Made by a program: the position numbers and the translations under genes. Shown here in pieces: positions 31,607 through 55,098 of a stretch of DNA of 64,000 nucleotides. Under the pieces are notes generated by a model. It saw nothing but the letters and a program-made list of their open reading frames with translations, made no database searches and was not told the origin of the DNA. Position 1 is the stretch's first letter; every line of letters starts with the position of its first letter. The stretch comes from Polytrichum commune (lineage: Eukaryota > Streptophyta > Polytrichopsida > Polytrichales > Polytrichaceae), in the NCBI GenBank assembly GCA_950295325.1, contig OX485806.1:54307169-54371168 (forward strand). Reading direction: 5' to 3'.

Positions 31607-33217
31607 AACACCATCAGGATCAGAGTTGGTGTAGAGGAGTTGTTTGACACGAGGTGTCGCGCACCTCTCCATGAGGAGTGCCCGCAACACCATGGGCACA
31701 AGGGGGACCCCGGAGTGACACCCGGGACTTGTGGCGCCATTGGTGAGAAGGCCCAAGTACTCTTAGCATGGGTGAGGGCCCCGGGCGTTGAGAATGCCTC
31801 TCACCCACGGGGACTAAGAGTCATGAGGGTAAGGCCATAAGTTATGAGTAGCGTATGGCGGTGGAATTCTAGAATGCTAAGGAACACCTCAATCGGAGGT
31901 GCTAGCTAGGAGATATGGCCATTTGAGTGGGGCGCTGTCCCGGGACAACACCCTGGGACAGCAGTGACCTGGGAGTGGTGCCCGGGACTGCCAAGGTTTG
32001 AAGAGCCATAACTTCCTCAATACTTGCCCAAGTGAGGAGTCCATCGGCATCTACGCAAAGAGTAGGTGACGATAGAGTGGTCGCTTAATAGCATCAGACA
32101 TCATATGTAGAAGTTATGGTCGTCTGAAGCCGTTGGGGGGGGTTCTAGCCCCAGCGGCTAAGGGAAAATGTCCACTTGGCCCCAACCCTTGTAGAGAGAC
32201 AAAAGGAGGGGAAGGCTAAATCCCCTGCAATAACGCACAGCTGGCTCACGTGTGGCCACCGTGGCACGTGGGCCCCGCGCCGGTGCCTAGCCCATTTGAC
32301 CCCCCAGGGTTTAGGGTACGGTCGTACCTTGCTAACGCCCGAGACACTGCACAGTGTCCCGAACTTGAGTCGCCGGAACACTGCAATGCCGGAACACTAG
32401 CCCCATCCATCGCCATGCCATCCCCTCATGCCCACGCCATGGCTGTGGGGCTCACCAATACGTCATCTCCCGTCAACCCAAAGTCTCGGAATGCGCGTTA
32501 GGAGACTAGAGTGAAGGAGGAGCAGTCCTTTTAACCCATATTGTTTGGGGGACAGCTCAAGGGTAAGCTTATAAGGAGAAGTGGCCAGCACCTCGTTCGA
32601 GAACAAGATGCTGACTTGGAACTGGTTACTTGCTACTTGTTGCTAAGACTATGGCCCCCTCTGATGAGAGAGGTTACTTGGAACTGGTGACTGGTTATTG
32701 GCTCTTGAGACTATGGCCGGATACTGAGACTATGGTCCTAGGGATTAGACTCTTCGCTTAGGCCAGTTCGCTTAGCTCGGTCACTCAGTTCCCGTTACTT
32801 TGCCATTGCTTTTGCATGTAATCCCAAAAGTCCAAAAGTCTTTTTCTTCAGGGTGTTTTTTGCTCAACTCGTCTAGCTTATCTTTTGCCCAAGTTGTTGA
32901 TTCAAAGCCACTAGGTGAAGTCGTATCATACATCATGAGACCCAACTCTTGAAGAACCATTGCACGTCGTACAATGTCTTTGATCTTTTAACAAGAGTGT
33001 TTTTGCCATGCACGACGACCATGCCACAAGCAAAGGAATATTGGAGTTCCAAGTTACGTCTCTCTGAAACATGCGAAAGATCAACCATGTCAATGTGAAC
33101 ACTTTTTTTGAGTAACGGCTTTCACAATGATATAAAATGACATTTAACAATGAATATGAGATAAATGGGTGGAATATATGTCAGGAATTGTTTGACTAAT
33201 TCAAACATTCGTGGGAA

Positions 33218-33387
33218 TGTAACACTGATTTTATAACACTGAAGTTGTAACACCGAACTTCTAACACTGAAGTTGAAACACTGATCTTGTAACACAAAAG
33301 TTGTAAAACTGAACTTCTTACACTGAGGTTGTAACACTGAATATGTAACACTAAAGTTGTAACACTGCAATCCTAAACACTGAAGTT
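33218..33387. repeat. ~14-bp minisatellite inside the MULE
   Basis: About eleven to twelve degenerate units of the type TGTAACACTGAAGT, each carrying (T/A)AACACTGA. It lies downstream of the transposase gene, inside the left arm boundary. Open frames through it are repetitive (VLQPQCKKFSF-like) and are rejected as genes. Confidence 0.8.
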
Positions 33388-33741
33388 TGTGTACGTATTA
33401 GCTATAGAATTACTATGGTTATCCGAGTAGCAAGAAACTATGAACAAAACTATAACTGATGTAATAACCCATTCGCAATTTCAAAATACAACAGAGTTGA
33501 TACTTACACATGCATGGCTGCCTATTTGAGAAAAACATATAACTACAAATATGATGATGGCTTTCTTGGTAGGAAATTGCATAAAAATCTTATATGAAGA
33601 GTAGGACATTGGATGTCAACAATGTATTCCGTGACACTAGAATCCTCAGAGTCCACATTTTTTCCTAAAGTTCCAACGGGGGTAGTGTCACGCGAGCAAA
33701 CACTGATATGATGTCAGTGCTTGAATTAACAGCCAAACATT

Positions 33742-38115: not shown

Positions 38116-39226
38116 ATTGGAGAGATTGTGCCTCTCCCATGTAAATGCCTCTAAATTTCATTCATGGAGATGGGCTCCACCTAACTCCGACACCTCCCCT
38201 CCCTGATTAGGGAAATTTGGGAACCCTAGAAACCTATTTCTTGGAATTTGTTCTTTAAAGATAGATAAAAAGGCACTAGAGCTTGATGAAAGGGCACCCC
38301 CTTGGTAATAGGAGTGGCTGGTGTATTATATAGTTTTGGTGCTTAAAGGGACTCTAATGGCTCCTGTGTTTTCTGTAGGGGGTCGGTCAAGTAGTCTGGA
38401 ACGATTGGGTAAAGGCTGGCATCTATAACTGTAGTGGTTAAGAAGAAAAAATGTATTTGGGTAGCCAAGGGTATCAGGGGGGATGTTAGGGGTAGACAAA
38501 TACTACCATATTTATTGTAAATTTGTGTAAATTTGCCAAAACATTTATGACTTCCAAATTAACTCAGCATCTGTTATTAAAACGCCAAAATATCTTAACA
38601 AATGATGTCACGATGGCAACTAGCGCAAGTGACATATATAGACAACGTAGTGCAACCCTTTGCAAGCAGTGTGCCTTGATATCATGAACAGTGACCGTAA
38701 ACTAAAATTAATAGTGTGATATTTCCACTCATCGAGGAGGAGGCTTATAGTCCTTTCCCGAAATGCCGCCCTCTCTGAGGCGGCCACGTCATGGCTTTGC
38801 GAGGGTTTTGAGCGTTGGAGAATTCAGAGCAGAGGAGCTTCCGAGCTTTGTTCATCGAAAGGTAATGTTGCTGACGCTTCACGTTCTGTTTTTGATACAA
38901 CCTGTACAATGTGATGTTACTTACGTTTCCAAAAAAATCTTCTAATAAATTCTACTCGAGAATCGCGCAATATTTCGTCTAAATGTGAAGATAGACACCA
39001 AATAGCCGATGGGTTGCAATCTATTTCGGTACTGTGCAATCAAGTGCACAAATATTTCATGTGCATATTCTGTTTATTATTCAAATTTTGTTTCCATGTG
39101 TTGCCAGTACTAAACTTAAGTTTGTCCTTGATGATGTCATGAGTAGGCGATACTGTTTTGTTGCGTTTCTCTTCAATCAATTCGGGTTGCGTTAAAGTTC
39201 TGTGGTGTTTCTGTAATGCTATAAAA
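38116..39226. other. Intergenic, 5' flank of the TAF5-like exon
   Basis: No domain-bearing frame. A GC-richer patch at 38760-38870 (GCCGCCCTCTCTGAGGCGGCC, an inverted GCCGCC/GGCGGC) may belong to a promoter or 5' leader of the exon at 39227. This is unproven. Confidence 0.35.
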
Positions 39227-39429
39227 ATGGAGGAGAAAAGAAAGGAGGAGAAAGGAATGGAGGATGATAAAGTCACGCAAGTGGTGATGGCATACTTGAA
39301 GAGCAAAGGTTATCGACAAGCAGAGCTTGCATTAAGTGTTGAGCAGCAGAGTCATCGTAATGACAGCTTAGAAAGTTCAGATGGTCCTGTGGATCCCAGC
39401 ATAGCCAACCCGATTCTCTTCTACTCAAG
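39227..39429 (+). pseudogene. Orphan first exon resembling TAF5 (LisH motif)
   Basis: From ATG at 39227 it reads MEEKRKEEKGMEDDKVTQVV, then AYLKSKGYRQAELALSVEQQ (a LisH-like helix pair, residues about 14-40), then a spacer and DPSIANPILFYSR. It ends at a good donor (TCAAG/GTAATG, 39429/39430). The N-terminal LisH followed by a 'DP.I...I.F.SR' segment is the opening of plant TFIID subunit TAF5; there the next exon would carry a GYSKLRSW-type block. No such exon or WD40 repeats appear before TFIIIA starts at 40169, so it is an orphan exon or truncated copy. Identity is inferred from short similarity only. Confidence 0.5.
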
Positions 39430-39738
39430 GTAATGTTCACCCTGTCATTAAATTCTTATAGTTTGGGATAGTTTATATATTAGATGGAAGGAGGAAATAT
39501 AATTGATGAGTTCGTGGTAACTGTGGCTTCCAGCTTGCTTCATTTTCTTGGCACATTCGGAGGTCCAAGGTTTTAGGATTGAAGAAGCATGTTCTCTCAT
39601 GGGAGCAATCTTGAAGTTAAATGTGTCACTACTTAAACTTGTTGTAGACGATGTTGTAGCAGAGGGTTAGTTCGTCGCGAACTTCTTTCGTAAAGCGAAC
39701 ATGTTGTTTGACACCGTAAAATATTTGAAATGAAAGGA

Positions 39739-39754
39739 TTAGGGTTTAGGGTTT
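39739..39754 (-). promoter_or_regulatory. Tandem telo-box (AAACCCTAA) upstream of TFIIIA
   Basis: The plus strand reads TTAGGGTTTAGGGTTT, giving two overlapping AAACCCTAA motifs on the minus strand about 415-430 bp 5' of the TFIIIA start codon. Telo-boxes are established promoter elements of plant ribosome and translation-machinery genes. It could also be a chance short interstitial telomere repeat. Confidence 0.45.
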
Positions 39755-40168
39755 AAGGTTTGAGGCTCCCGGCGTATGATGATACCTCTGTGAGAATGTA
39801 ACCATAACCATAAGATTTACGAATATATTTTAAAACCAATACTTGGTATTTTGGTTTCAGGGGTGCAGGTGTCGGTGCATGGAAGTGTGCTTGCAGGGAG
39901 CCGGATGGAGAATTCTTTTGTGGTCTTACCGAAGCAAAGGGGGAGTGAAACCATGATTCTTTCCTCCTCGACCTAGGACTGGGGGGTTGCACTACTCAAC
40001 TCCAGGTACCTATTCTTAGAACAACTCCTATGGTCACCCTAAACGATTCTCTTTAATCGTCTTTTGCAGTTTTAGGGGGCCATTCCACATGCTCATCTCT
40101 TCCAAAACACACGAGGAAGGCCACTCTTGGATGTGAAGTAAGAAACAATTTTTGCTCAAAGTGGCTGA

Positions 40169-42883
40169 ATGCAATCTTCCAAAATTGAAGGTGATGACGA
40201 AAGCGGAGAGAGCAACGGCAGGAGGGAGAGAGAGGTGAAGTACACGTGTTTGGTGTGTGGAATGTGTCTCCACAAACCCGCGTTGCTAAAGCAGCACATG
40301 GCTTCTCACTCTGACAAGGTAAGCGCATAGTGTTAGGGTTACGAGTTTGTGTGGCTTGGTGCTCTTCTTGATGCATTGCCGATGTTTTTAGTGTGTTTTG
40401 GATGTATTGTAAGCCTTTTAGAATTGCTTTTGAAATGGTGCCGGTAGTTGCATAGTGGGCATTATTGATTGCCTATGTTGGAAGAGGGTCTTGGAGTTAG
40501 GGTTGAGTAGGGGTTTGTTTACATAGGATTTGAGTTTATGAGAATATTTTGTTGAATTGGTGGCGTTGGTTTTTTTTCAAGAAATGAACAGGTTGCGACT
40601 TGGAGAAACGAAGGCCTACCAGATCCCATCCGAACTCTGAAGTCAAGGCGCCTTAGGCTGGGTTAGTACTGGGAGGCTAGCAACCCTCTTGGGAACATCC
40701 AGTGCTTCATTCTCCTACTACGCTACTTGTTATGTCACTTCTGATGGTTTTGCTCTCTGATGCTGCTGCTCACAGTGATTGTTTTGGAGAAACTAAGGCC
40801 TACCAGATCCCATTCGAACTCTGAAGTCAAGGTGCCTTAGACTGGATTAGTGCTTGGAGGGTAATAACCTCCGAGGAACATTCAGTTGCTTCAATCTCCT
40901 TTTACTTATATCATTGTTGATGATTTGCTCTATGATGCTGCTACTTACAGCAATTTTTTGTTCTGCAGAATCTTGCTGTTAGGGATATACGACTTGTGAG
41001 ATGTATTTTTGGGTAACTCGCCCAAAAATCTGGTCAATGAACTTCATGATATGAGCTATCATAGAAAGTAGAGTTGTTGCAAGCTGTGAATGAATCACTA
41101 AGACTCTCAACTCTGCTTGTATTGCAGAGATCATATACATGTCCTGTGGAGAATTGTGGCAAATCTTACAAGCAACAAGATCATCTCAATCGCCACTCTA
41201 ACTCACAAAGGGAAGCTTTTCATGTGCCCAGTGAAGGGTTGTGATGTTTCATTCACGTTGAGTTCTAATCTTTAGAGGCACGTGGGTCTGCATGAGAAAT
41301 GGGACTCAGAGTTGCTCTCAGGACAGAAAGGAGTAGCACCTGACAGTTTGAAGTGCCCAGAACCTTGCTGTGGCAAAAAATTCAAGTACCCATCTCTTTT
41401 ACATACCCACACCAGTTCTGGCATGTGACCTTTATTATGTAATGATTTTGTAGCTATGTTGTTGTAGCTTGGTAGTTGGTATTTTATAATCTGGGTGAGC
41501 CTTGTTTTCTGATGTTTGTGCGAAATCAGGTATATTTAGGAGTTATCCTACTAACAAGGTTGAAAGGTCACACACACGAAAATCCAAGTGATGCTTGAGC
41601 AACTTGAAATGTTGATTTCCTGAATGTATTTTCCTTTGGGTTTGCAATGCAGAGTCCATGGTGGTTGACCAAGTAGTGTGCATGGAACCAGGGTGTGGGG
41701 AGGTATTTGCTGATGTTTCTCTGCTACAAGCACACCACAAATTGTCACATTGTCACGTCATCTGTGATGTATGTGGCTTATCCATGTTGAGAAGACAGTT
41801 GAAGATGCACATTTTACTGCACACTGGAGGAGCTCCTAGGATCCAGTGCCCTCATCCTGGTTGTCTGCATACTTATAGCTCGGTATGGTTCCTAGCTTCA
41901 TTTGAGCACATCCTTGCTTCTCCATGGTTATAGGACTGTGTGGTATATATGTTATTGTGAGGTGCACTTACAGCCAAATACTGTGAGGATACATAAGCAA
42001 TTTGTCAATCAAGTGAGTCCCTTTGGATGCAAATTTTTGTCCCTCACCGAGTAACATTAAGAGATGAAGGAATTAGGATGATGGATTGATAGTCAGTATG
42101 CAAATATGTTCAGATCGTGAACATGCTTGGTCCTGCTCCACGAGGTGTGCATTACTAGGTAATTGATATTTATAAGATGATCTGTTTTCAGAAATCCAAT
42201 TTGGACACACACATCAGAGCAATTCATATGGAGTTAAAGCCTTACAAGTGCTCACAGTGCACTATGCGAACTCCATACAAGGTTGTGCGTGACAAGCATG
42301 AAGCTGTTGTTCACTCAGAGTCATCAAAGGTACTAAAGGTGTTGCACTCAATTCTAGTAAACCATCATCTCTTCATTGTGGAAAGTCTGCATACATGAGG
42401 TCTTAGTTCTCACACATGTGACAAGGCTTCTCCAGCTGGCTGTACTTTTCCTTCACATTGGATTTACTTCTTGATAGGAATGTAACTGTTATGTCTTCAG
42501 GAGCAAGTATTCTCTTGTAGGTTATTGAACCAAGTCTAAGTGTACAACAATGATATATGAGCTATTTTTTGGTGATAGGTGTCTGAATCAATGTTCCTGG
42601 TTCTCTTAGGAATATACTGTGCTCATAGAGCACAGTGACTGCTTTGCAGCAGATCTCATGGCAAAGAACGTTCTGACCTAATACTACCATCTCTCAAAAT
42701 TGACCTATTTATTGACATTAGTTCTGGCTGGTACAGGTTGTAGATTTTGAAGCTGAAGATATTGAATTCAGAATGAGACCACGAGGTGGTCGGAAACGTG
42801 TTATGATTCAACATGTTGATGACCTTTTTACCAAACGATCTGCCTTCAAAGTCTTGTCTGAGTTGTCAGCAAGGAAGTGTTAG
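40169..42883 (+). CDS. TFIIIA: Transcription factor IIIA (5S rRNA gene factor), with a damaged second coding exon
   Basis: Coding exons: 40169-40318 (MQSSKIEGDDESG..., finger 1 YTCLVCGMCLHKPALLKQH), 41128-41420, 41653-41882, 42192-42329 and 42737-42883 (VVDFEAEDIEFRMRPRGGRK... ending SARKC, stop). The C2H2 fingers and the C-terminal RPRGG.KR block match plant TFIIIA, which binds the 5S rDNA internal control region and 5S rRNA. Exon 41128-41420 opens with finger 2 (YTCPVENCGKSYKQQDHLNRH). It then shifts frame at 41197-41200, giving stop TGA 41242-41244, and has an in-frame TAG at 41273-41275 in the downstream frame. Its donor appears to be GC (CTG/GCATGT). The other exons are open and in phase. 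Intron 1 contains two P5SM elements. It is either a recent pseudogene, an unusual spliced gene or sequence error. Confidence 0.85.
40602..40715 (+). ncRNA. P5SM: P5SM (plant 5S rRNA mimic) element, copy 1
   Basis: A 114-nt 5S-rRNA-like element in TFIIIA intron 1. It opens GGAGAAACG and closes ATTCTCC, so the terminal stem GGAGAA/TTCTCC pairs perfectly. It contains AGATCCCATCCGAACTCTGAAG, the equivalent of the 5S loop B-helix III-loop C region, and GGTTAGTACTGGGAGG with AACCCTCTTGGGAA, equivalent to loop E/helix IV. In studied plants this exonised 5S mimic binds ribosomal protein L5, which promotes skipping of the exon and so productive TFIIIA mRNA; inclusion adds a stop and triggers decay. 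A candidate acceptor is GAACAG/GTTGCG (40591). Confidence 0.9.
40786..40899 (+). ncRNA. P5SM: P5SM (plant 5S rRNA mimic) element, copy 2
   Basis: A second 114-nt copy lies 70 nt after the first. It opens GGAGAAACTAAGG and closes AATCTCC (5-bp terminal stem). AGATCCCATTCGAACTCTGAAG preserves the B/C region. The helix IV equivalent GGAGGGTAATAACCTCC pairs better than in copy 1. Identity to copy 1 is about 85% by eye, highest in the first 70 nt. Flanking introns are duplicated as well (TTTTGCTCTCTGATGCTGCTGCTCACAG before copy 2 resembles GATTTGCTCTATGATGCTGCTACTTACAG after it), so the duplicated unit is about 184 bp and includes a splice acceptor. Confidence 0.88.
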
Positions 42884-45219
42884 TCTTGTTAAATCTGGTA
42901 GTAGTGTGTATATATTGTCCCTTTACAGAGGAAATCATTCAATAGGAATACAAACTTGTAGGGAGAACTTTACTGGGAGCTAAATCAGGGCTCTTTTGGT
43001 CATTAAAGAATCATGAACATAAACTTCAACACACATCCTCAAAGGGTTATTTAGGAAAAACAATCGACACATCAAAGTTTTCTTGGGACAAGTATTAGCT
43101 AAATTATGAGACTGTAGTATACTATGTGCCATCTAAGAGATTCTCTTACCCCGGGCAATTGGACATCAGCACTAGGCTGCCCTCCCAACATAAGTTGTAC
43201 TTTTAGCATTATTATATAAAGTGAAATGGACTTGGTCGACAATTTATCCTGCACTTGTGATGTTGTGTGCTGTTTGTAAAACATTTCAGTTCATTATGCT
43301 TACTTGACTGTCCCTGCATGAAACCTACCTGTTTGTGAATAAACCAGGTAATCTACCTGCATACACAAGTCCAAAATATTTCGAGAGGGGGAATTATTGC
43401 ATACAAGCATATATCTCATCCATCCAACATGAAAACTTGACCCCCAATAGGTTTGTTGTTGATTCACCTCATATCACTTGAACTAGACTAATTTGGGAAA
43501 GAAACTTAGATAATAAGGAGAAATTGATGTTGGTATGAATAGCATGAATGTTGTGAATAATTTTACTATGAGTATATTATTTATAGTAAATAGTGCTGGT
43601 ACTTTCAGTGAATAGTGCCAGGATGAACAACGCTTCCTAGATCTTATGGTCACTAATTTCATAGCATGAAGAAATTTAGTATCACCTTCACTAATTTTCC
43701 ACATACACTATTATCCCACCCTCACTAAATGAGATAAATAGTGTAGTCAAGTGTTTGAGTTTTATAGCAAGCCTATTTTTATTTTACAAATAAAAATTGT
43801 AAAAACACCCTACTAGAGTAATTAATCTTCTTTTTACATGCTGGAAGGTTTCAGATTTCGGGTTTGGTGTGCATGAGATTCAAATGGAGTTATCTTTGTG
43901 ATCCTCAAATACATAACTTGTATTGTGTTCTTGATTTGATCATTTCGTCTTGCACGAAGTCTTGGTAGATTCTCTTTTGTTTGCTGATGCTATCGATTAC
44001 CTCCTTCGTGTAGTTCCAGTTACCATCATCATTTTGCTAAATCTGATTGTGCTTTCCATGCACGCTAGGGCCACCTCAAAATGTAAGTGGGATGCCCCAA
44101 AGGAGTTACATTAAGTTACACTAATCATAAGTTAGCTTGAAATGGAAGCCTATTGTGAACAATCTACATTGTGTTTTTTGGATGAGGAAATGTGAAGATT
44201 ACAAAGCCAACATGTAATTATACCTTTGAGATATCAATCTAAGGGGTTTTTTTTTTTTTTTCCTCCTCTGTTATTGAGCAGATCATGATCGAGTTTGGTC
44301 TTAACTTCACACCCGCATAGTCTTGTTGCTTTTCAAATGAACTGCCTCTCCTAAGAGGGCCTCCTCCTCCCACCAACGGTGGGGCCTTGGCCCCGACTGG
44401 CTCGTTTCACCTTTGAGTTGGATTCATGTCAATAACATGTCTACTAAAAAATGAAACTATTGAAGCATAACCTTCAAGGAAATGATGACTTTCAATCAAT
44501 GCATGTTCTTGTTTATGATAAATTCTTCTCAACATGTATGACACACTTTTGGATTGAACCTTCAAGTATTCTGCGGCCATACCCACCTGCCTATTCACCC
44601 ATATACCCAGCCAATATACCATGGTCTCACAGGTGTAACTTGCAAGAGCCAACAGGTTCACTCAGCCAGGCCGCGCAAGCAAGTCCTCTCCATTCTAAAT
44701 CCCATGGTTCTCAGACAGCAGTGAAAGAGCTTAGAAAACAAGAAAATTGCTAACCATATACTCTGCTATGCTCCATCCATGATACTGTCCTCTCCACCAG
44801 AGAACAGTGGTAGAGCTGGCAGTAAGTGCCACTCAAAAATAAAGGGATAGTGATTACAACCAGCATCACAATCTAATTGCCTCTGCGTTGTCAAGCAACT
44901 TCCAGGTGCAGCCTACAGTCTGTACAAATCATCAGCACTATCAACTATCAGGGAGGACACTAGCATCATATTGCATCATGCAGCAATCCGACATGCCACT
45001 CCTTTCCATTTTCAGCAGTGCTCCACTAGTACCAAGATTCAACCACTTGTCACTACCTTTTCTCAACGATTGCTAGTGCCTGACTCTTCAGGAAGACAGG
45101 GTAGGAATTAATCTGTTCAATTACTAATTCCTGTATGGGTAATGAGTCTCAGATCCTCTGTCAGCCATACCAAGGCAGCTTTACAAGCTCAAACAGTCTC
45201 TCTCTTCCTCTCCATCTGC
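42884..45219. other. Intergenic region between convergent TFIIIA and EDC4
   Basis: Mostly AT-rich with no domain-bearing frame. It must contain the 3' untranslated ends of both genes. A T-run lies at 44247-44262. No mobile element was recognised. Confidence 0.5.
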
Positions 45220-48200
45220 TCATTTGCAAGATGTTAACAGGGAATGTACTACATGGATGACAAGTCTCAAGTTAGCTTGCTCCGCTGGTATAGTTGTCAG
45301 CTGCACTTGACGATGTAAATTCTGATATAGCTGTTCCAAAAATGGACGCATATGTGGAGCAAGTAAAGGGTCATCTGGATTCAGTGCTAGTGCTGCCTCA
45401 CGGATCCATGAGAGCTTCCGTGCAGTGTCTTTACCCAGATCACAGCCAAGCTGCTGCACAAGGGACAGTAGCACTCCTTGACTCAAGGGCAGCGGTACTG
45501 TATTGAAAAGGTTGACTTGATCCATCTGCATGCCCAGAAACAGAGTCCTGTTCACTTTGAGCAACACAAGCACTTGCAGGAAGACTTGATTTTTTCTGAC
45601 TAAGCCTTGATGAAAGAATAGCAGATTATTGTCGAGTTCTCTCAGACAGCTCTCACAAATAGCCAAAGTTTTGAGCACAACAAAAAAACAGGTACCTGCA
45701 TGCATAGCCAGGAGACAACAGCCACATCACTGAGAGAAAGGGCCTTGTTGAAAGCCTCCTCAAGTTTACGCTCCTTCACAAGCCTCGTGAGCTCAATCGT
45801 AGGGTCCAGAGATTCCTCCAAGTGTTGCAGAGAAAGCACCTGTCATGTACTGAGAGAGTTATGTCCAAAACAAAGTGATAGAATGTACCACCACTTTAAG
45901 TAACTCGTGATTATTATGAGGTGGAAACTTTTATCATATGATTATTCATTCAGATGAGAGAAAGAATGAAGACAATCTTTAACTGATGATTGTGCACCCT
46001 AAACGAAAAAATTAGTGATAACGGGAGTGTTGGTATGAGGAAACCTTAACACTTGACACCTTACTGCTTAACATTGGTATCTTTCCTCATTAAGAGACAA
46101 AAATGTTCACCACACTTATAAAGATAACACTTCATAGAGGACCAATGATAACATTTCCTCGGTCAAATGGCAGTCATGGAATATACATTCTCAAGTCTAC
46201 TTCAAGAATGCAAAGACCATGCACAGCTGAGAAGAGACATATCTCCATTTGGAAGTCAACTATCAACCTCATGGAAGTAACCTATGAAGACCATTTACAC
46301 ATGCTAGTTGATAAGAATTGGGTATGTAATGTTGTAATAGTGTTGAATAATGATCTCATTCATCTCTTTTTCAAACTTTGCCTGTGTAACTCTTGTACTT
46401 TGCAATACAATTTGAGATTTCTTACCAGTTGATGTTCACTTATAAAACCAGGGCACTCCAAATGCTTGCACATGTGGGGTGGGCTCTGAGGGGTCTCTAA
46501 AAGAGGCTACCAATATGATTAGCAAGCCATAACAAGAACTGATGGCAAGTATGCCTGACTTGTACAGGAAATAGCCTGAAATATGCATATAAATATGGAG
46601 TTGACTGACAGGGCCTGTTATGAGAGGGAAATTCTATACAAAAAAAGCAGCAACATCTCAAGCAGGATGTGATAGAGGGCCCTGGGAATCCAACACATAA
46701 GGACCTTCTTAACCATGAATTGTCAAAACACCTTCAGGCCAGGGCCAACAAACTCTGAGGTTTGAGTCTAACTTAGGGCTTTAGGAGGGTGACTGTTGAA
46801 TTAACACAACCATTGCTTGTCCAGAGATGTTCCTTGTAAATGCCCTCGATAAATGTCATGGCAGAAAAGCAACACAAAATGGAGACAGTACCTTGTCAGG
46901 GAGGCCAGAATTGATCTGCTTCGAAACAGGCGGAACACATATTGCAATTGCACTTGCATTCTCTGCAAGGGTAATAAGTTTCTTCTGGCCATCTGCTATC
47001 TCTCCCTTCAAGGAATCTGCAAGCAAAGTTGCCGATGCCACAGTTTCCTGCAGAACATGCAACTCAGCCTGTGATTGCTACTCTCTGAAAAATTATTGTG
47101 ATTCTAAAATGATTGCCATACCTCAGTAGAGGGTCTGTGTAAGCAAGGAGAAGCACAAACCTGGAGGGTGGAGGCAAGAGCGGTATGAGATGAAAGTAGT
47201 TCTTGTTGAGCATGCTGGGTGTACTCTGCCATGCCATGTTGAAAAGATGATTCCACATGATCAAACATGGATCGGCATGTCCGCTCAAATGCTGGAAGGA
47301 CAGTACTCTCAAAACAAGAACGTAATGCTTCCTGCTTCCCACCAAAAAAAACAGCTTCTAGTAAGGAAAAAATTTGAAAGGACTGCAAGAAAACCTGAAA
47401 TACACATAAGTTTGTGGAGTGTCCAACTAAGCCATGTGTACTTTCCTGACCTGTAAGGCTTGTCGACCAATAGTTTGAAATTGTGTCTGTATCTGCCGAG
47501 TCACTGTCCCCTCCAATTTTGCTCCTACAGACTTCTCCAGCTGAGGTAGCATTTTATCTGCCATACCCTTCTGTGCAGCCAATCCACCAACCATCCAACC
47601 CTTCTTTTTAGTTCATTGCCCAAGTTACAAGGGACTGATGTTTGGAAGTCTATCAAGATGATACTGACTGAAATATATAGAGCAAGTGTATATATACTTG
47701 CATTCAAGACCTAAAGTAGACACACGATATTTAGAAACATGACTACAATAATTAGTGATGCACTTCACCACATAAAAGATTCACATCGACTACTGGAGAG
47801 AGTTTGGATTGTGAATACCTGAAATGACTCTGCCACAGTCATAGAGACAGCTTTCTGAAGAGGAGGTAAAACTGCCTGAGCAACAACTGGACCAATGGCA
47901 GCAAATTCCTTCTTAAACCCTCGCTCCAGAGCAACTGGCATATCTTTGCTGACAAAATTGTTGAGCAAAGCTGTAACCTGCTGAACCCTTTCGCGCTCTT
48001 GTTTCTCTCTCTTCACATTCTCCTCGGCTAATCGTGCCCACATAGCATCTACATGCGCTTTGAGAAGTTTCTCCATTCTCTGACCAAGTGCACCTGGAAC
48101 AAGGGCTGAAATTGAATTTGCATATACATGTGCATACAGCAATGTGCCAGATGTTATCCTTCAAGTATTTTAAATAGAGAGAATTCCCTGACATTAAATT

Positions 48201-51200
48201 CATGCCAGAAATACTTGAATTGAGAATAACTGGATGGCTATGGGTCAGGAGATCTTGCACCCTATACATACTTACAACGTCAATGTGGAGGACTACTTCA
48301 CCCACACTGAGGGTGACCTTCTTGAGCTGTGTTACATGGATAAAATAATTATAGGAGTGTCTTAGTTATCATTACCAGGGCACACCATAATTTGACAGGC
48401 ATGTACTAACTGTATTATTATGCATCTAATCAAGCATCAATCCATCAGATGAGAACTCAACTCTGTTACAGATGATATTGTTAATGACAACCCTACAGTA
48501 TCCAGAAAGGGATAGGCTCTTCTGCACCCTTTCATGGAAAAGCTCACTGACAGGTTATCACAATTAGACTTTTCTTGATTTGGTCCCAGGAAAAACATCT
48601 TTGTGATTGAGGGAGGTCCAGATTTCAGCCCTTGAAAATCAAATTCAATAGGAGAAACTTGGTGCTTGTTTCTTCACTTAAGATGTGCAAATCAACTTCA
48701 AGTGAACATGGATTGGGCTGAAGGATTTAATGTGCAAAAGTCAATGTGCATCGGTAGCTGACTTGACAATCAATACCTACTTTGCAGATCTCTGACACTA
48801 GAGGATTTACAGTTGCATATAAATTTACTAAATAATAGAGGTGAATGCAAAATAACCATGAGATCATAGTACACACACTGATATTTGTAAGTTATCAATA
48901 GGACTCACTTGCAGAGAACATCCAATAACAAACTGACTTAAGGAAGTGCTATTTTCCAAACAGAAGGATACCTTCCATCCGTTTGCCCTCCTTTGCGACA
49001 GGGACAGCCACCATTACTGTCATTTGCTTTTGAATCTCCTTCTGCATGGTAACCAACTGCACCAATCCCAGACCACATTCACCCGGGATATAATTGTAGC
49101 ACGATGCCATGTAATGCAAATGATATGCATAATAGCCAAGAGGGTGGCTTTCATTTCAGGAAAAGAGAAAAAGGTCAGGGTAAAGCGAATGTAAACAGTC
49201 CAATCGCATTGCAAAAGCAGGTATTCACCTGATTCAGGGACTCTTGCATTGATGCCACCTGTGCAAGAAGAATGGGGTCAACTGGAGCAGGACTTGCTTG
49301 GGGTTGCGTTGGTATTGGAGCTGAATCTACACTCTGACTGGATCCACCTTCTGGCTTTGATCCAGAAGTTGATATGATAGCCATCTGTAATGACAATGGT
49401 ACAGAGGCAGGCCCAACTCCACCAACATTTGTCTTGTTCTTGTTCTTTCTCCCTTTCGCAACTGCAGACAACTGTGGAGGTAGTGAAGCGGCTTCAGTAA
49501 CCCCATCCCTGATTGCAAGGTCTTGCAGCTGCTCATTGACATCATCTCTCGGCAGGTTCAAAGACCTATCTGTGTCTTCAATATTTTCATTCATTTCACC
49601 CTGTAGGATTTCCTCTTCTGTATACATGTCAGGAAGGAACCCAGAATTGGACTTGCTCTCATGGTCAGTAGCCACATCATTTTCGACATACTCTTTTGCA
49701 ATTTCAGCAGCCTCCAGGGACTCTATTGAGGATGAGACTGCATTATCCTTCTCTAGAACAGTATTCTCAAAAGCCGTGCTGTGTCGCTCAAGTACTTCGT
49801 TGTCTAGGATAACATTGGACTCGAGAGCAATACAGCCCTCCAGGCTTGCACCACTTTTTGGACCTCGGGGTTTTCCATCCTTGGCATTCTGTTCTTGACC
49901 TACAGTTGAGGTGGGTGTACTATATGTTTCTGGAAACTTAGAGCCAACTGCAAGGTTCATAAGCTCTGATGGAGTTATCAGATGAAGCCCCTGGTGTCCA
50001 CCTTGCTGTGATTTTGCGCTGCCTGTTTCAGAAGATGCATCCTGCCTATCCATGTTTTCCTCTACAGAATTGCTGCTCGAGGAAGAATGACCCCTATCTA
50101 AAATTAGAATATTCTGTGGAGCGGCAAGAGCAGATGTTTCTTGTCTGCTATCAAAGGCATCTTCGGACTTTTGCTTGGCAGACATAGACCCCACAGGGAC
50201 ATAAAGCATATCTGGGCCTTCAGTTGGACTTCTTGGACGTGGTTGTCTTGCATATTGATTAGAGGTAGGCAGTTTCATGTTGCCTGCTGATGGGGCAACC
50301 TCTGACCTATGGACAAATTCCAAAGTAGGTGCATTACTGGACTGAGTCCCAGGTGGCAAACCAGAAGTAGGCTTGACATTATCAGCAGGAGCTTGTAAGA
50401 ATTTAGAAAAGTCCATCACAATACTCTTCTCCACATAATTTGCATTTGAGACCTCCCGATGACCAGCTTCAACAGGACTCCCAAACGCCGAGGAAACTGC
50501 TGGTCCCCTTGCAGGAATAATGACACTTGATGCAGAAATTGTTACATTGCTCAAACCAGATGATGATGTAGGTCCCATATCCATCAAATTAGGTGGCCCA
50601 TTTTCACAAGAAGCTAGACCAGTGCCTTCCTGTTGGAATGGCAAAGGCCGCTTCTCAGAACTAGCTGGAGAGTCTAGACTGGAGTCCACAGGAGAAAGCG
50701 GTACACACAGTGAAACATCCAACCCATACTGTTGTATAGCCTGAGTTTGCACGCAGTAAAGTTGCACCTTGCCTTCTCCAGTCTCTCCGACTGTCTCCTC
50801 AGTAACTGTCAAGCTCAAAATCGGCATTGTAACTGAGAACTCTGCCAGGTAGTTCATACGTGCAGAAGCTGGGCTGAGACCAAATTCAACATGGACTGCA
50901 TAAATTGAATTCCTCTTGGCATTGGCCAGCAAGATAAGGCTTGCCCGAGAGGCCACGACCAAGTGATTGAAGATTGAATTGTCATGTTTGCCTTCCAGAG
51001 CACCTGAGCTCTGAAATTCAAGGGTTTGTATGCATCGCCACAATCCCGTACCTGACCTTGAAGGTAATTCATCAGGGCTGTTTGTTGGAGCCCATAATTT
51101 CAATTCTCTATTTAAAGGTCCCTGGGACAACATTGTAGTAAACAAACAAATTAGCCAACTTCCTGCATGGAAGTCTTAACAGTTCCTCTCTGTACCCTTG

Positions 51201-53879
51201 CAAAGAAATATTCCAAATTAAATGCATGATAACAATTGTTCCTCTAACCAACAAACCCCTAACTTCAAACCAGACTGAAATGGTGCAACACATTGAGATA
51301 CTGTTAACCTTTACACCACTAAATAGGGAGCACAGAAGCATGGAGCTGTACCGCAGTAAGTAACACATGATAGTCAAGGTGTTGCGGTGCTGACAGAAAG
51401 GCCACTGAGGACACAGCCTCCCCTCCATGTGGACTAATACTTAACAAAGGTCTCTTCATATTGTCTCCCCATATGCGCACCTGAAATACAAATACATCCA
51501 CAGATATTTGTCAGCAAAACACAGCCACTGTTAGCATCAAGAAGTAACAAAAGACACAAGGTTTTGTTCCATAACTCAGAGGCAGGTCCAATCCAATGCT
51601 TTGAATGTAATTGAATGGGCAGAGAAGTCCTTACTGTGCCATCTTGCGACGCTGATGCCACACGAAACGAGGGAATAGATGACACTGCTAAGTCTGTAAC
51701 ATCTCCATGGTGAGATCCCAGTAGATGGACACCTTCTAATGGATTATCCACATGACAGACAATAGGCTGATCTGGTACAAAATAGCCCTGTGGTGCAGCC
51801 TGCTGTACCTTGATTACATTGATGCTTAGAACAAATTTCCCAATGGCCACCTCCAACACATCCTGCATTAGATTCATCCCAATCAGGCCAGTACAACACA
51901 AGGTAGACTTGCAGGATCTAACAGGAACAGGTTCATCACTAAACCTATACACAATACTCATGGCTTGTCCGCCTGCATGAATAACTAAGCTAATCTATTT
52001 GGTGAGAAAAGAAACTGACTATTGATCCACAGAAACTCAGATTATCAAATCTGACCTGCAATTGCAGACTCCAGCAGACAAGTGGATGGCAGGACTCCCA
52101 ATCTCCTTTGACTTGGATTGCTAGCAAAATCTGCTCGGTAATGAATACTTTGCCATCCTCTGCTGGACCTTCCAGAATCTTCCTCACAAATATCCGGCCA
52201 TCTGCGCTCGCACTGCAGTATCCACAAGCAACAACAGGTCATTCAAACCATGCCCAAAGCCAACCTCATTTCTAGTGGCTGAAAAAGTAGGTTCAGCTTC
52301 CCATTTCCATGAGAGGAAAGGAGGATCATCTTGGAAACTAATGGAGCAAGTGAACTGTATGGAGAAGAGTGTAGAAGAGGGGATCCATATCTCTCACCCC
52401 TTCATTCCTTGTGATAGGTCACTTGCAACCTCTATACAAATTCTTGGAGGGCGAGTAGGGGTTGCAGAGGTCGAACAGCCCCTACAGGATGCACTCCCTC
52501 TGTTTTAAGGTTATTCCCAGGGTTGATGCACCGTCTTTGGGTTTTTCTAGAGTATTGACAACTAAATCGCTGAGAATAAGGTAAGTGGATATTAAGATAT
52601 AGCAATTACCTAAAGAAATGAAGGAGTGAAGGAAATGGGATCCCCACTCATTAGATGCGTTCATGTACTTTCTTAATCGACACACTGTCTTGGTGTACAC
52701 TGAAAATGTCAATAGAAATGTAACTTAGTCGTGTAAAACTACTTCAAAAAATGGGAGCAAGACAAGTTCATGGTCCAAAACGGTCATCTTACCTAGCAAG
52801 AAGATGTACATCCTCTGCCAAGAACGCCATATCCGTGACTCTCTGTCACCACATACCACCCCTCCACTAATTAACATACCATCAGACAAAGAAATGTCAA
52901 ATCCTCATTTGCCTTGCCTTGCCCAATGTCATTTAGATAGATGGATACATAGATCTAGGCCAAAGATAACTACTGTTGAGAGTACCTGTGTATGACCTCG
53001 AAGGAGGGCTCTTAACGCTGTGTTTATATTAAGAATTCGGATTGTGCCTGCTCGCAATCCGTAGCAAATATACTTCTTGTTCACTGCGATCTGCCGGCCC
53101 ACGACTAAAACGGGATCTGATCCATAGACTGTAATAGGGCTCACTTCTAGCTGAGGTTGAGCTTCCCCAGGCTTGCGCACATCAATGTCGTAAACAACAT
53201 GTTCTCCCCAAAGATGTCGACCATTGGGTTGCTTGCCACTTGACAGCCTAGCTGACGAACTGGAGTTGATTGGGGCAGGTGGGGCCGTGGGCAATGCTGG
53301 AGATAGTGCAGGAGGGGGAACAGAAACATTTTGGCCGCTCCCATGAGACGACCGAGGCCTTTCGTTAGAATTTGGCTGAGTTCCTGATATCGAGGACCCC
53401 TCTTCACTGTTAATTGCTTCAGTTCCAGGGCTGGTGGTAAGAAGTGCCATTAGGCGGGCGCCATCCAGAGGCATTACTGACAGATTTGGCCCGCCACTGC
53501 CTTGAGGTGTAGAAGATATGGGGAGAGACGAAAGAGGAGGACTAGAATGTTGAAGAGAAGGGAGAGGACCAGGAGATAATAACTGTGCCTGCGGTTGTTG
53601 GTTATAAGGAGCACTCGTGAAGGTAGGAGAGCGCAATCCATGCTCCTGATGATAATGCATGTAAGGATGGTAGACAGGAGACTGTCCTTGCTGTTGTGGA
53701 GGTGCACTATACTGATAATTTTGTGGAGGCATGCTGGGAAAAGAACCAGGATTTGGGGGAAATTGATTGGCTGGATATGGTGGGTGAGATGTGTATTGGG
53801 GGAGAGGATATGGGCTTGGAGGCGGCTTGTTGAAAAAATTATGAATGTCGAAACCCCCTGATGGTCCTGTAGCGCCCAT
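45220..53879 (-). CDS. VCS: Enhancer of mRNA decapping 4 / VARICOSE (Ge-1) scaffold
   Basis: Thirteen in-phase coding exons: 53879-52986, 52842-52793, 52212-52056, 51862-51635, 51480-51352, 51121-49229, 49056-48972, 48093-47819, 47570-47451, 47331-47161, 47047-46892, 45839-45696 and 45525-45220. Total 4608 nt, 1535 aa, all with GT/AG borders and no lesion. Residues 1-200 are Pro-rich (start [20 protein letters not shown]). Residues ~225-560 hold WD40-like repeats ([38 protein letters not shown] across an intron, [10 protein letters not shown]). Residues ~600-1100 form a Ser/Glu-rich linker, and ~1130-1535 a helical Ge-1 C-terminus ending [13 protein letters not shown]...[10 protein letters not shown]. 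The family scaffolds DCP1/DCP2 decapping in cytoplasmic P-bodies. The gene is single and looks functional; it is longer than the roughly 1340 aa remembered for Arabidopsis VCS. Confidence 0.96.
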
Positions 53880-55098
53880 TACAAAAGTAATTCTATGCAA
53901 AGCTTGTGAAATGCTGACTCCTGCTTCTGAATCTAACAGCCAAATTCAGAATTAGATATAGATACAGTTTTCAACATTTACACAGGCAACAGGATAGGAT
54001 AGGAGGATACAACAACACACGCAAAAAAACAAAACGTGCGTACATGACAGACCAATGTAAAGATTAGAAGTCAATGCAATGCATTGTTATACTGAGAAAT
54101 CGTCAAACTTAGTTGCGAAATGCAGCACCAACATAAATTTGAGAATACTTGCACCCCAAACCCTTCCGTTCAGTTGCTTTACTAAAATATACACCAGTTT
54201 ATCATAAAAAGGTACCAGCAACCTGAAATAGTTCAGAAGAGTGGCCATGAAATGCTCACAACCACTGCAAATTAGTTTGAAGCCAGTTCAGATAGAGTGT
54301 CACTGACTTAAGTTCCTTGTACACACGTTATGATCTGGCAGTCTTGTAAAACATCGTCTTCCCCAAAATCTAACACAAAGCCCCAAACTCTTAATTCAGC
54401 TCCACATATTAGTTGTTCTAAATTCACAGTGCATGTCTTGCAAGTTAGAGTAACTAATTAAGCAGACTGTCACACCCAAGACAATTAATAAACACAACTC
54501 ATACCAAAATCACGTACATTTGCTTCATGTTTCTGAATGCACTCAAAAATCACTATGAGCCACTCTACAACAACCAACGTCGTCTTCCAATCCGCTAGCT
54601 TTCACCAACGTGCCCCTTCCGCAGGATGAGGGTTGACTTACCTTTAAGTGCACAAGCTTGAAGCGTCCAGCTCAGACACTCCAATACAACCAAAAGTGGG
54701 CATCGCAATTTAAATTAATTTGCAAGTAAGTTATCACACTTAACAGTAACTGATACCAACCAGGCAATCAACAGAAGAACGCATCCCTCTACTAACCAGG
54801 ACATCACTGCACTTTTGCACCACACCTTTGCGCTCAGCAGCACCTCAACTAGCACTCCAACTATTCCAACCTTCCAATCGAGCATCGTTCACATGAAACA
54901 ACTTAGCCCCTTCAACCTCTAATTGTTAACCCACAAAGGACATTCCAGTAAACCAACAAATACAATCACAGACGAGAACATCCCCCCTACATCCACCCTC
55001 TCCTTCACCGCCCATGCCATTAATCCGTGCGCCGCCTACACCTCATTCAGAACCGAGAGCATAACCAGAAGCCCTACACGCAAACCTTAGGGTTTACC
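53880..55098 (-). promoter_or_regulatory. Predicted 5' UTR intron and leader of EDC4
   Basis: Upstream of the start codon a 5' leader exon (53932-53880) is preceded by a good acceptor (GGCTGTTAG/ATTCAG). A matching donor, GCGCAAG/GTAAACC, lies at 55098/55097, predicting a leader intron of about 1.16 kb. No upstream in-frame coding sequence is needed. Transcription start is probably within about 300 bp beyond 55100. This is inferred from splice signals alone. Confidence 0.5.
55087..55095 (-). promoter_or_regulatory. Telo-box AAACCCTAA at the EDC4 leader intron donor
   Basis: The minus strand reads GTAAACCCTAAGG, so a telo-box overlaps the predicted 5' splice donor of the leader intron. Telo-boxes near transcription starts are known in plant translation and growth genes. 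Confidence 0.45.

Follow-up and report, generated by a model that had tools for sequence, protein, structure and literature searches.

The gene for TFIIIA is said to carry a suicide exon, P5SM, which reportedly goes back to Hammond et al. 2009 and Fu et al. 2009, and the present study concerns a tandem pair of such elements in the moss Polytrichum commune. The pair lies in a 64,000-nucleotide (nt) stretch of contig OX485806.1 (C4:54307169-54371168; the whole stretch is referred to here as the window, and the TFIIIA copy within it as the window copy or C4 copy), and it is shared with an apparently functional TFIIIA gene on contig C2. As set out in parts of PMC5568362, PMC5972288, and PMC6164485, P5SM is a 5S-like RNA located in an early intron of TFIIIA in land plants, and its inclusion in the transcript gives an early stop. 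The exon-skipping event was compared by Fu et al. (2009) in mosses, among others, according to a passage of PMC4374538. A P5SM-derived suicide exon has also been engineered as a cassette, HyP5SM, that is retained by default and skipped in the presence of OsL5, the L5 protein of rice (PMC4538838, in the part that describes the cassette).

The moss arrangement resembles the P5SM of other land plants in that a 5S-like RNA occupies an early TFIIIA intron and that its inclusion, here by predicted splice sites, leads to an early stop. It differs in that two copies stand in tandem instead of one, and in that the host gene in the window is dead. HyP5SM differs in another way, being engineered and placed in other genes, and the part of PMC4538838 that deals with it mentions no tandem use. 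A double P5SM is named in no title or abstract opening of the literature searched, the original P5SM papers lying outside that scope. The reading advanced here, to which we assign a probability of about 0.7, is that the tandem P5SM of the C2 gene works as the known switch with two sites for ribosomal protein L5, and that the window holds a dead copy of it.

Two 5S rRNA mimics in TFIIIA intron 1

In the window (all features are on the + strand unless stated otherwise), two 117-nt mimics of 5S ribosomal RNA (rRNA), P5SM copy 1 (40600-40716) and P5SM copy 2 (40784-40900), lie 67 nt apart with their starts separated by 184 nt. They are 81.2% identical when aligned without gaps and 87.1% identical (101/116) when gapped, with 2 gap positions. 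The spacer between them (40717-40783) is part of a 184-nt duplicated unit, and repeat comparison identified a second spacer copy as the tail of that unit (40901-40959), the two spacers differing at 13/58 positions. Because the spacer was duplicated along with the mimic, one event probably copied P5SM together with the 67 nt downstream of it. A preliminary description of this DNA had placed two elements here, 114 nt long, 70 nt apart, and ~85% identical, and these values are about right; the self-pairing terminal stem that it attributed to each element is predicted in both window copies, with 6 base pairs (bp) in copy 1 and 5 bp in copy 2 (6 bp and 8 bp, respectively, in C2).

A search of the 64 kb with the Rfam 5S covariance model, which the preliminary description had proposed as a check, yielded 41.4 bits (E 3.8e-05) for copy 1 and 37.2 bits (E 0.00048) for copy 2, where the gathering score is 38 bits. 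At this threshold only copy 1 is listed in the window, copy 2 being short by 0.8 bits, and the window on its own thus comes close to the single scoring copy that the description had named as speaking against a pair; however, the tandems of C2 (46.0 and 51.9 bits) and C7 (48.6 and 42.8 bits) exceed the gathering score in both of their copies. For the window mimics, Rfam returned the 5S model only and no P5SM family, and no further 5S-like place was detected in the whole window at E 0.05. Between 40300 and 41200, the single match other than 5S up to E 10 was L10_leader, at 20.9 bits far under its gathering score of 44. The 5S genes of the same genome that were scanned score 103.4-109.6 bits with the 5S model, and the much lower scores of the window elements therefore mark them as divergent mimics. 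A 5S gene or 5S gene cluster was rejected on these scores and on the presence of TFIIIA exons on both sides of the pair.

The genome searched is a 408-Mb assembly of 64 contigs, of which C1 to C7 measure 77.9, 70.3, 59.2, 59.1, 52.9, 44.7, and 42.1 Mb (~406 Mb). With window positions 40580-40975 (396 nt) as the DNA query, 12 places were found among the best candidates scored, and 4 of these hold P5SM: the window itself, C7 (98% identity, query positions 1-363), C2 (94%, all 396 positions), and C1 (96%, positions 1-138 only, a fragment that scores 41.3 bits with the 5S model). Six of the 8 places without P5SM are 5S genes by cmscan, and C7:15488537 (locus L031) had no Rfam match at E 0.1; these assignments cover 11 of the 12 places, C1:52925727 being left out. 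An assembly duplication, the other objection raised in the preliminary description, was rejected, as the same tandem is present at three chromosomal places (C2, C4, and C7) with differing letters. Further, the tandem copies are more divergent from one another (10/59 positions outside a 57-nt block considered below, and 16/58 in the C2 spacers) than are the introns of C2 and C4 (100/1517), which makes the tandem duplication the older event. Judged from these letters, the duplication is real, is no assembly error, and predates dispersal: P5SM was first doubled in tandem within the gene, copies were then dispersed, and decay followed.

The C2 gene and its predicted switch

The TFIIIA gene on C2 (C2:59.43 Mb, locus L010) was modelled by hand from homology and splice consensus; the model has five coding exons bounded by GT/AG and an uninterrupted reading frame of 362 codons, and its N-terminus is longer than that of the window copy. 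Among the TFIIIA copies found in this genome, it alone has its frame intact. P5SM lies in intron 1, between exon 1 with the first finger and exon 2, in both C2 and C4. A search of the genome with the protein of Physcomitrium scored 53 candidates and gave 25 matches. Residues 149-253 of this query have a whole match at C2 only (E 2.4e-40), the match in the window being broken; the one TAG counted at C2 sits just past the exon-2 donor, inside intron 2. The C2 protein has identities of 53% and 56% to the Physcomitrium and Ceratodon proteins, and a protein search (11 matches) gave Physcomitrium patens (58%) and Ceratodon purpureus (60%) as the nearest, over 94% of the query. These homologues bear generic names, and one match, P0003, carries the JGI name general transcription factor IIIA. 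The name TFIIIA is based on homology, since Pfam gives only C2H2 families for the C2 protein. Codon changes on the C2 lineage number 9 synonymous and 5 nonsynonymous, and those of C4 and C7 together 11 and 16 (205 codons, no significance test); over all shared exons, C2 and C4 differ by 23 synonymous and 20 nonsynonymous changes. Because its frame and splice sites are intact, and not through proven constraint, the C2 copy is likely a working TFIIIA gene.

Splice sites were scored with a generic plant matrix. The acceptor ahead of copy 1, AACAG/GTTGCG (5.2), is the best in the C2 stretch (60 AG) and in that of C7, and the second best in that of the window, where the start of the predicted P5SM-1 exon occupies 40592-40599. 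Both C2 copies have a donor-like GT in the loop of helix IV, GAAG/GTAGCA in copy 1 (1.6) and GAGG/GTAATA in copy 2 (2.9), which rank fourth and second, respectively, among 62 GT headed by the true exon-1 donor (6.3). In the window, copy 2 has a donor-like GG/GTAATA at 40861 in the helix IV loop, and the corresponding GT of copy 1 reads CT (40677-40678). The preliminary description had given copy 2 an acceptor of its own; its CACAG is indeed present (CTCACAG/TGATTG, from which the window exon would start at 40776) but scores weakly, 0.2 in the window and 0.1 in C2 against 5.2 before copy 1.

The possible exons of C2 are two of 85 nt each, taken singly or together, or a single one of 269 nt that begins at acceptor 1 and closes at donor 2. 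By these predicted splice sites all four inclusion forms tested stop early, at codon 89 when copy 2 alone is included and at codon 95 otherwise, where exon 1 itself reaches codon 88, and full-length protein would consequently require that both elements be skipped. The two serial exons with four splice outcomes envisaged in the preliminary description are thus possible in C2, but the single 269-nt exon is equally likely by the scores, and for full-length protein there are two outcomes. Every inclusion form leaves a downstream frame of 242 codons that starts in the third finger and resembles the TFIIIA-7ZF form described for other plants in a part of PMC6164485.

Provided that the C2 gene is expressed, as we infer, the double element would most likely act as the known P5SM switch with two L5 sites. 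A 184-nt piece of TFIIIA intron 1, comprising P5SM and its 67-nt downstream spacer, was duplicated head to tail in a moss lineage, and the C2 gene has kept the double element. When little free L5 is available, the spliceosome would take in either mimic, both of them, or a long exon that covers the two; the frame would stop after 0-6 codons of exon sequence, and full-length TFIIIA would not be produced. With L5 on both mimics, the helix IV loop donors would be hidden, the two mimics skipped, and full-length TFIIIA produced. The gene body was later copied elsewhere, introns and both mimics included, in a segment that begins inside exon 1 and extends past the stop codon; the window holds such a copy, which is now dead.

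As described in a part of PMC6164485, helix II and loop C are where L5 (RPL5) binds 5S rRNA. In C2, the first 57 nt of the two copies, which contain the 5' strand of helix I, helices II and III, and loops B and C, are identical (57/57), and the remainder differs at 10/59 positions plus 2 gaps (Fisher p 0.0013 versus the 57-nt half), with the spacers differing as given above. The same two halves differ at 0/57 and 10/59 positions in C7 and at 3/57 and 12/59 in the window. In both C2 copies the L5-binding half appears to have been preserved, and support for the other half is modest. Gene conversion or recent exchange between the copies, as opposed to selection for two L5 sites, would also produce identity of this kind, in which case the double element would carry no regulatory meaning. 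The identity does form a single uninterrupted 57-nt block, as conversion leaves; yet the block coincides with the L5-binding part of 5S, its loop C region is by eye nearly that of the genuine 5S of this genome, and C7 keeps the identity whereas the window copy has acquired 3 differences. We regard conversion as improbable.

Pair retention was assessed for 21 pairs of helices II, IV, and V, counted by script on a hand-gapped alignment. All 21 are kept in C2 copy 2, and 20 of the 21 in C2 copy 1 despite 10 substitutions, one pair having changed on both sides (T-G versus G-C); random letters at the same sites give a mean of 18.0 pairs. Across the seven units compared, C2 copy 1 and window copy 1 have one broken pair each, the C1 fragment has two, and the other four have none. 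In minimum free energy, C2 copy 2 beats 200/200 shuffles (z -3.57) and C2 copy 1 beats 192/200 (z -1.83).

Several results weigh against a two-site switch in C2. First, pair retention is marginal: trials with random letters at the same sites reach 20 pairs in 3.8% of cases, the figure is 7.1% when the sites are drawn at random in the 3' half, and C2 copy 1 has lost one pair of helix IV. Second, divergence of P5SM is not clearly lower than that of the introns, either between C2 and C7 (7/234 versus 68/1117, p 0.06) or between C2 and C4 (12/234 versus 100/1517, p 0.47). Third, coding constraint is weakly visible between C2 and C4 (exons 43/922 versus introns 100/1517, p 0.051), does not appear between C2 and C7 (37/622 versus 68/1117, p 1.0), and between C4 and C7 the exons are, for reasons unexplained, more divergent than the introns (36/622 versus 35/1120, p 0.011). 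Fourth, the Cys-Cys spacing (CSQC) in the last finger of the C2 protein is shorter than in its homologues. Fifth, the acceptor of C2 copy 2 is weak and the donor of copy 1 is moderate. Lastly, in the predicted fold of the C2 tandem (L010 3071-3420), the terminal strands pair across the copies, the 5' one of copy 1 with the 3' one of copy 2, with ~18.5 expected pairs across copies versus 56.5 within them (0.9 versus 69.1 in the window). The C2 mimics may hence not fold independently, and the case for two sites that act independently is weakened by this predicted cross-copy pairing. The uninterrupted block noted above belongs among these points as well.

A subset of these observations would fit a C2 gene with one working exon, starting at acceptor 1 and ending at donor 1 or donor 2, and with the other mimic as a bystander that keeps its 5S-like half. 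In the C2 stretch, acceptor 1 (5.2) outscores all others, the acceptor of copy 2 scores almost nothing (0.1), copy 2 supplies the highest-scoring internal donor (2.9), and pair retention is just marginally above random. Yet both C2 copies score above the 5S gathering threshold, and the 57-nt half has stayed identical while the rest diverged. Additionally, the copy 1 donor scores 1.6 in C2 versus -1.0 in the C7 pseudogene, a change that a bystander would not need and that is the same one that breaks the helix IV pair. A single working exon is a possibility that we take seriously and place somewhat short of an even chance. The two-site switch could, in turn, have a sharper form, in which TFIIIA senses free L5 via two serial mimics. 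As any inclusion kills the message, full-length protein would then need both mimics bound, giving a steeper, threshold-like response than one P5SM alone would give; the cross-copy stem might help, and the dispersed C4, C7, and C1 mimics could soak up L5 if transcribed. This elaboration we consider doubtful.

The window copy and the stretch around it

Relative to the C2 gene, the window copy is 5'-truncated. What remains of exon 1 (40179-40318), with the first zinc finger of the gene, is open and ends in SDK ahead of the donor GTAAGC at 40319. Exon 2 (41128-41401, by comparison with C2) begins after TTGCAG and reads RSYTCPVENCGKSYKQQDHLNRH up to the point where the frame breaks. It is broken in three ways: by a 2-nt deletion relative to C2 after 41195, by an in-frame TAG at 41273-41275, and by a 33-nt deletion relative to C2 at 41401/41402 that took the exon end and the donor. 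Exon 3 (41653-41881), exon 4 (42191-42329), and exon 5 (42738-42883) follow, the last with the conserved stretch RPRGGRKR and a stop 3 codons earlier than in C2. An intact frame with intact splice sites was not found, a functional TFIIIA in the window was rejected on account of the three lesions, and the same lesions identify the window copy as a pseudogene. The tandem P5SM in TFIIIA intron 1 of the preliminary description thus stands for the apparently functional C2 gene, but in the window its host is a pseudogene and the donor-like GT of copy 1 is mutated.

Copy 1 of the window is decaying. The window element as a whole is very probably a relic that does nothing, a view that is compatible with a switch in C2, which concerns the other gene. 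Exon 2 is broken, the donor of copy 1 is lost, the fold of copy 1 is no better than shuffled sequence (z 0.02), and transposon-like ends surround the copy; on the other hand, copy 2 still folds (z -2.60) and keeps its donor.

About 105 nt past copy 2, the window contains a perfect 8-bp hairpin (41006-41028; TTTTTGGG-TAACTCG-CCCAAAAA) whose letters are identical in the C2 gene. A donor-like GG/GTAACT (GGGTAACT) stands at the border of its stem and loop, with a donor score of 0.8.

Gene capture by transposons is known for those of the Helitron or Pack-MULE type. The window copy is similar in that a gene body with introns is 5'-truncated and sits in a stretch the ends of which recur at other loci. 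This stretch of ~5.7 kb (38732-44404) has transposon-like ends, opening with TCGAGGAGGAGG... and closing with a GC-rich palindrome followed by ...GGCTCG, and we infer that both ends belong to one element. Eight repeat loci were compared (L017, L018, L019, L020, L021, L022, L024, and L026). The 3' end, placed in the window by blast, is found at all eight, as CTCG in 7 and as CTCC in L024, and a T follows the CTCG at 6 of the 7. The 5' end opens the shared region of two further loci, L027 and L028, and ~60 nt of it match C7 and C1. Against L020, the repeat loci align over 2083-2149 nt with 95.1-99.6% identity (858 nt for L024); all eight encode TFIIIA residues between 189 and 303, and L021 aligns to pieces of the window, namely intron 2, exons 3 and 4, and the 3' end. 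The repeat loci look like internally deleted relatives of the window element, and the repeat is probably a transposon of the gene-capturing kind, which multiplied once it had lost internal sequence. Two observations count against a simple one-element picture: the C7 copy (L009), from which exon 2 and the 3' portion of intron 1 have been deleted, stops matching the window at 44261, and the 3' end of the stretch was not found in L009.

Helitrons are recognized by a 5' TC, a 3' hairpin followed by CTRR, and insertion between A and T. Here, the TC start is seen at 2 junctions, where it is preceded by T and G and not by A, and a GC-rich palindrome lies near the 3' end, but that end is CTCG and not the canonical CTRR. 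The element, Helitron-like in some respects, is at most a candidate Helitron. Just upstream of the TFIIIA remnant, window positions 40098-40173 match L010:8209-8284 (96%), which lies downstream of the C2 gene. This arrangement looks like a join of the copied segment over the junction of a circle or a tandem.

Elsewhere in the window, a fragment of eukaryotic small-subunit rRNA lies on the - strand at 33211-33509 (46.6 bits, just under the Rfam gathering score of 50). Also on the - strand, at 45220-53900, is a series of open reading frames that to our eye resemble a gene for an mRNA-decapping protein of the EDC4/VARICOSE type.

Meaning of a double P5SM

The window shows a regulated gene body copied, together with its mimics, into a transposon-like stretch, and it warns against taking the window copy as functional. 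The double arrangement matters because the apparently live C2 gene shares it. That a double element is present there suggests that P5SM can be duplicated and kept, and a natural double P5SM in a gene that seems to work would make it possible to test directly if two stacked L5 sites sharpen 5S rRNA feedback.

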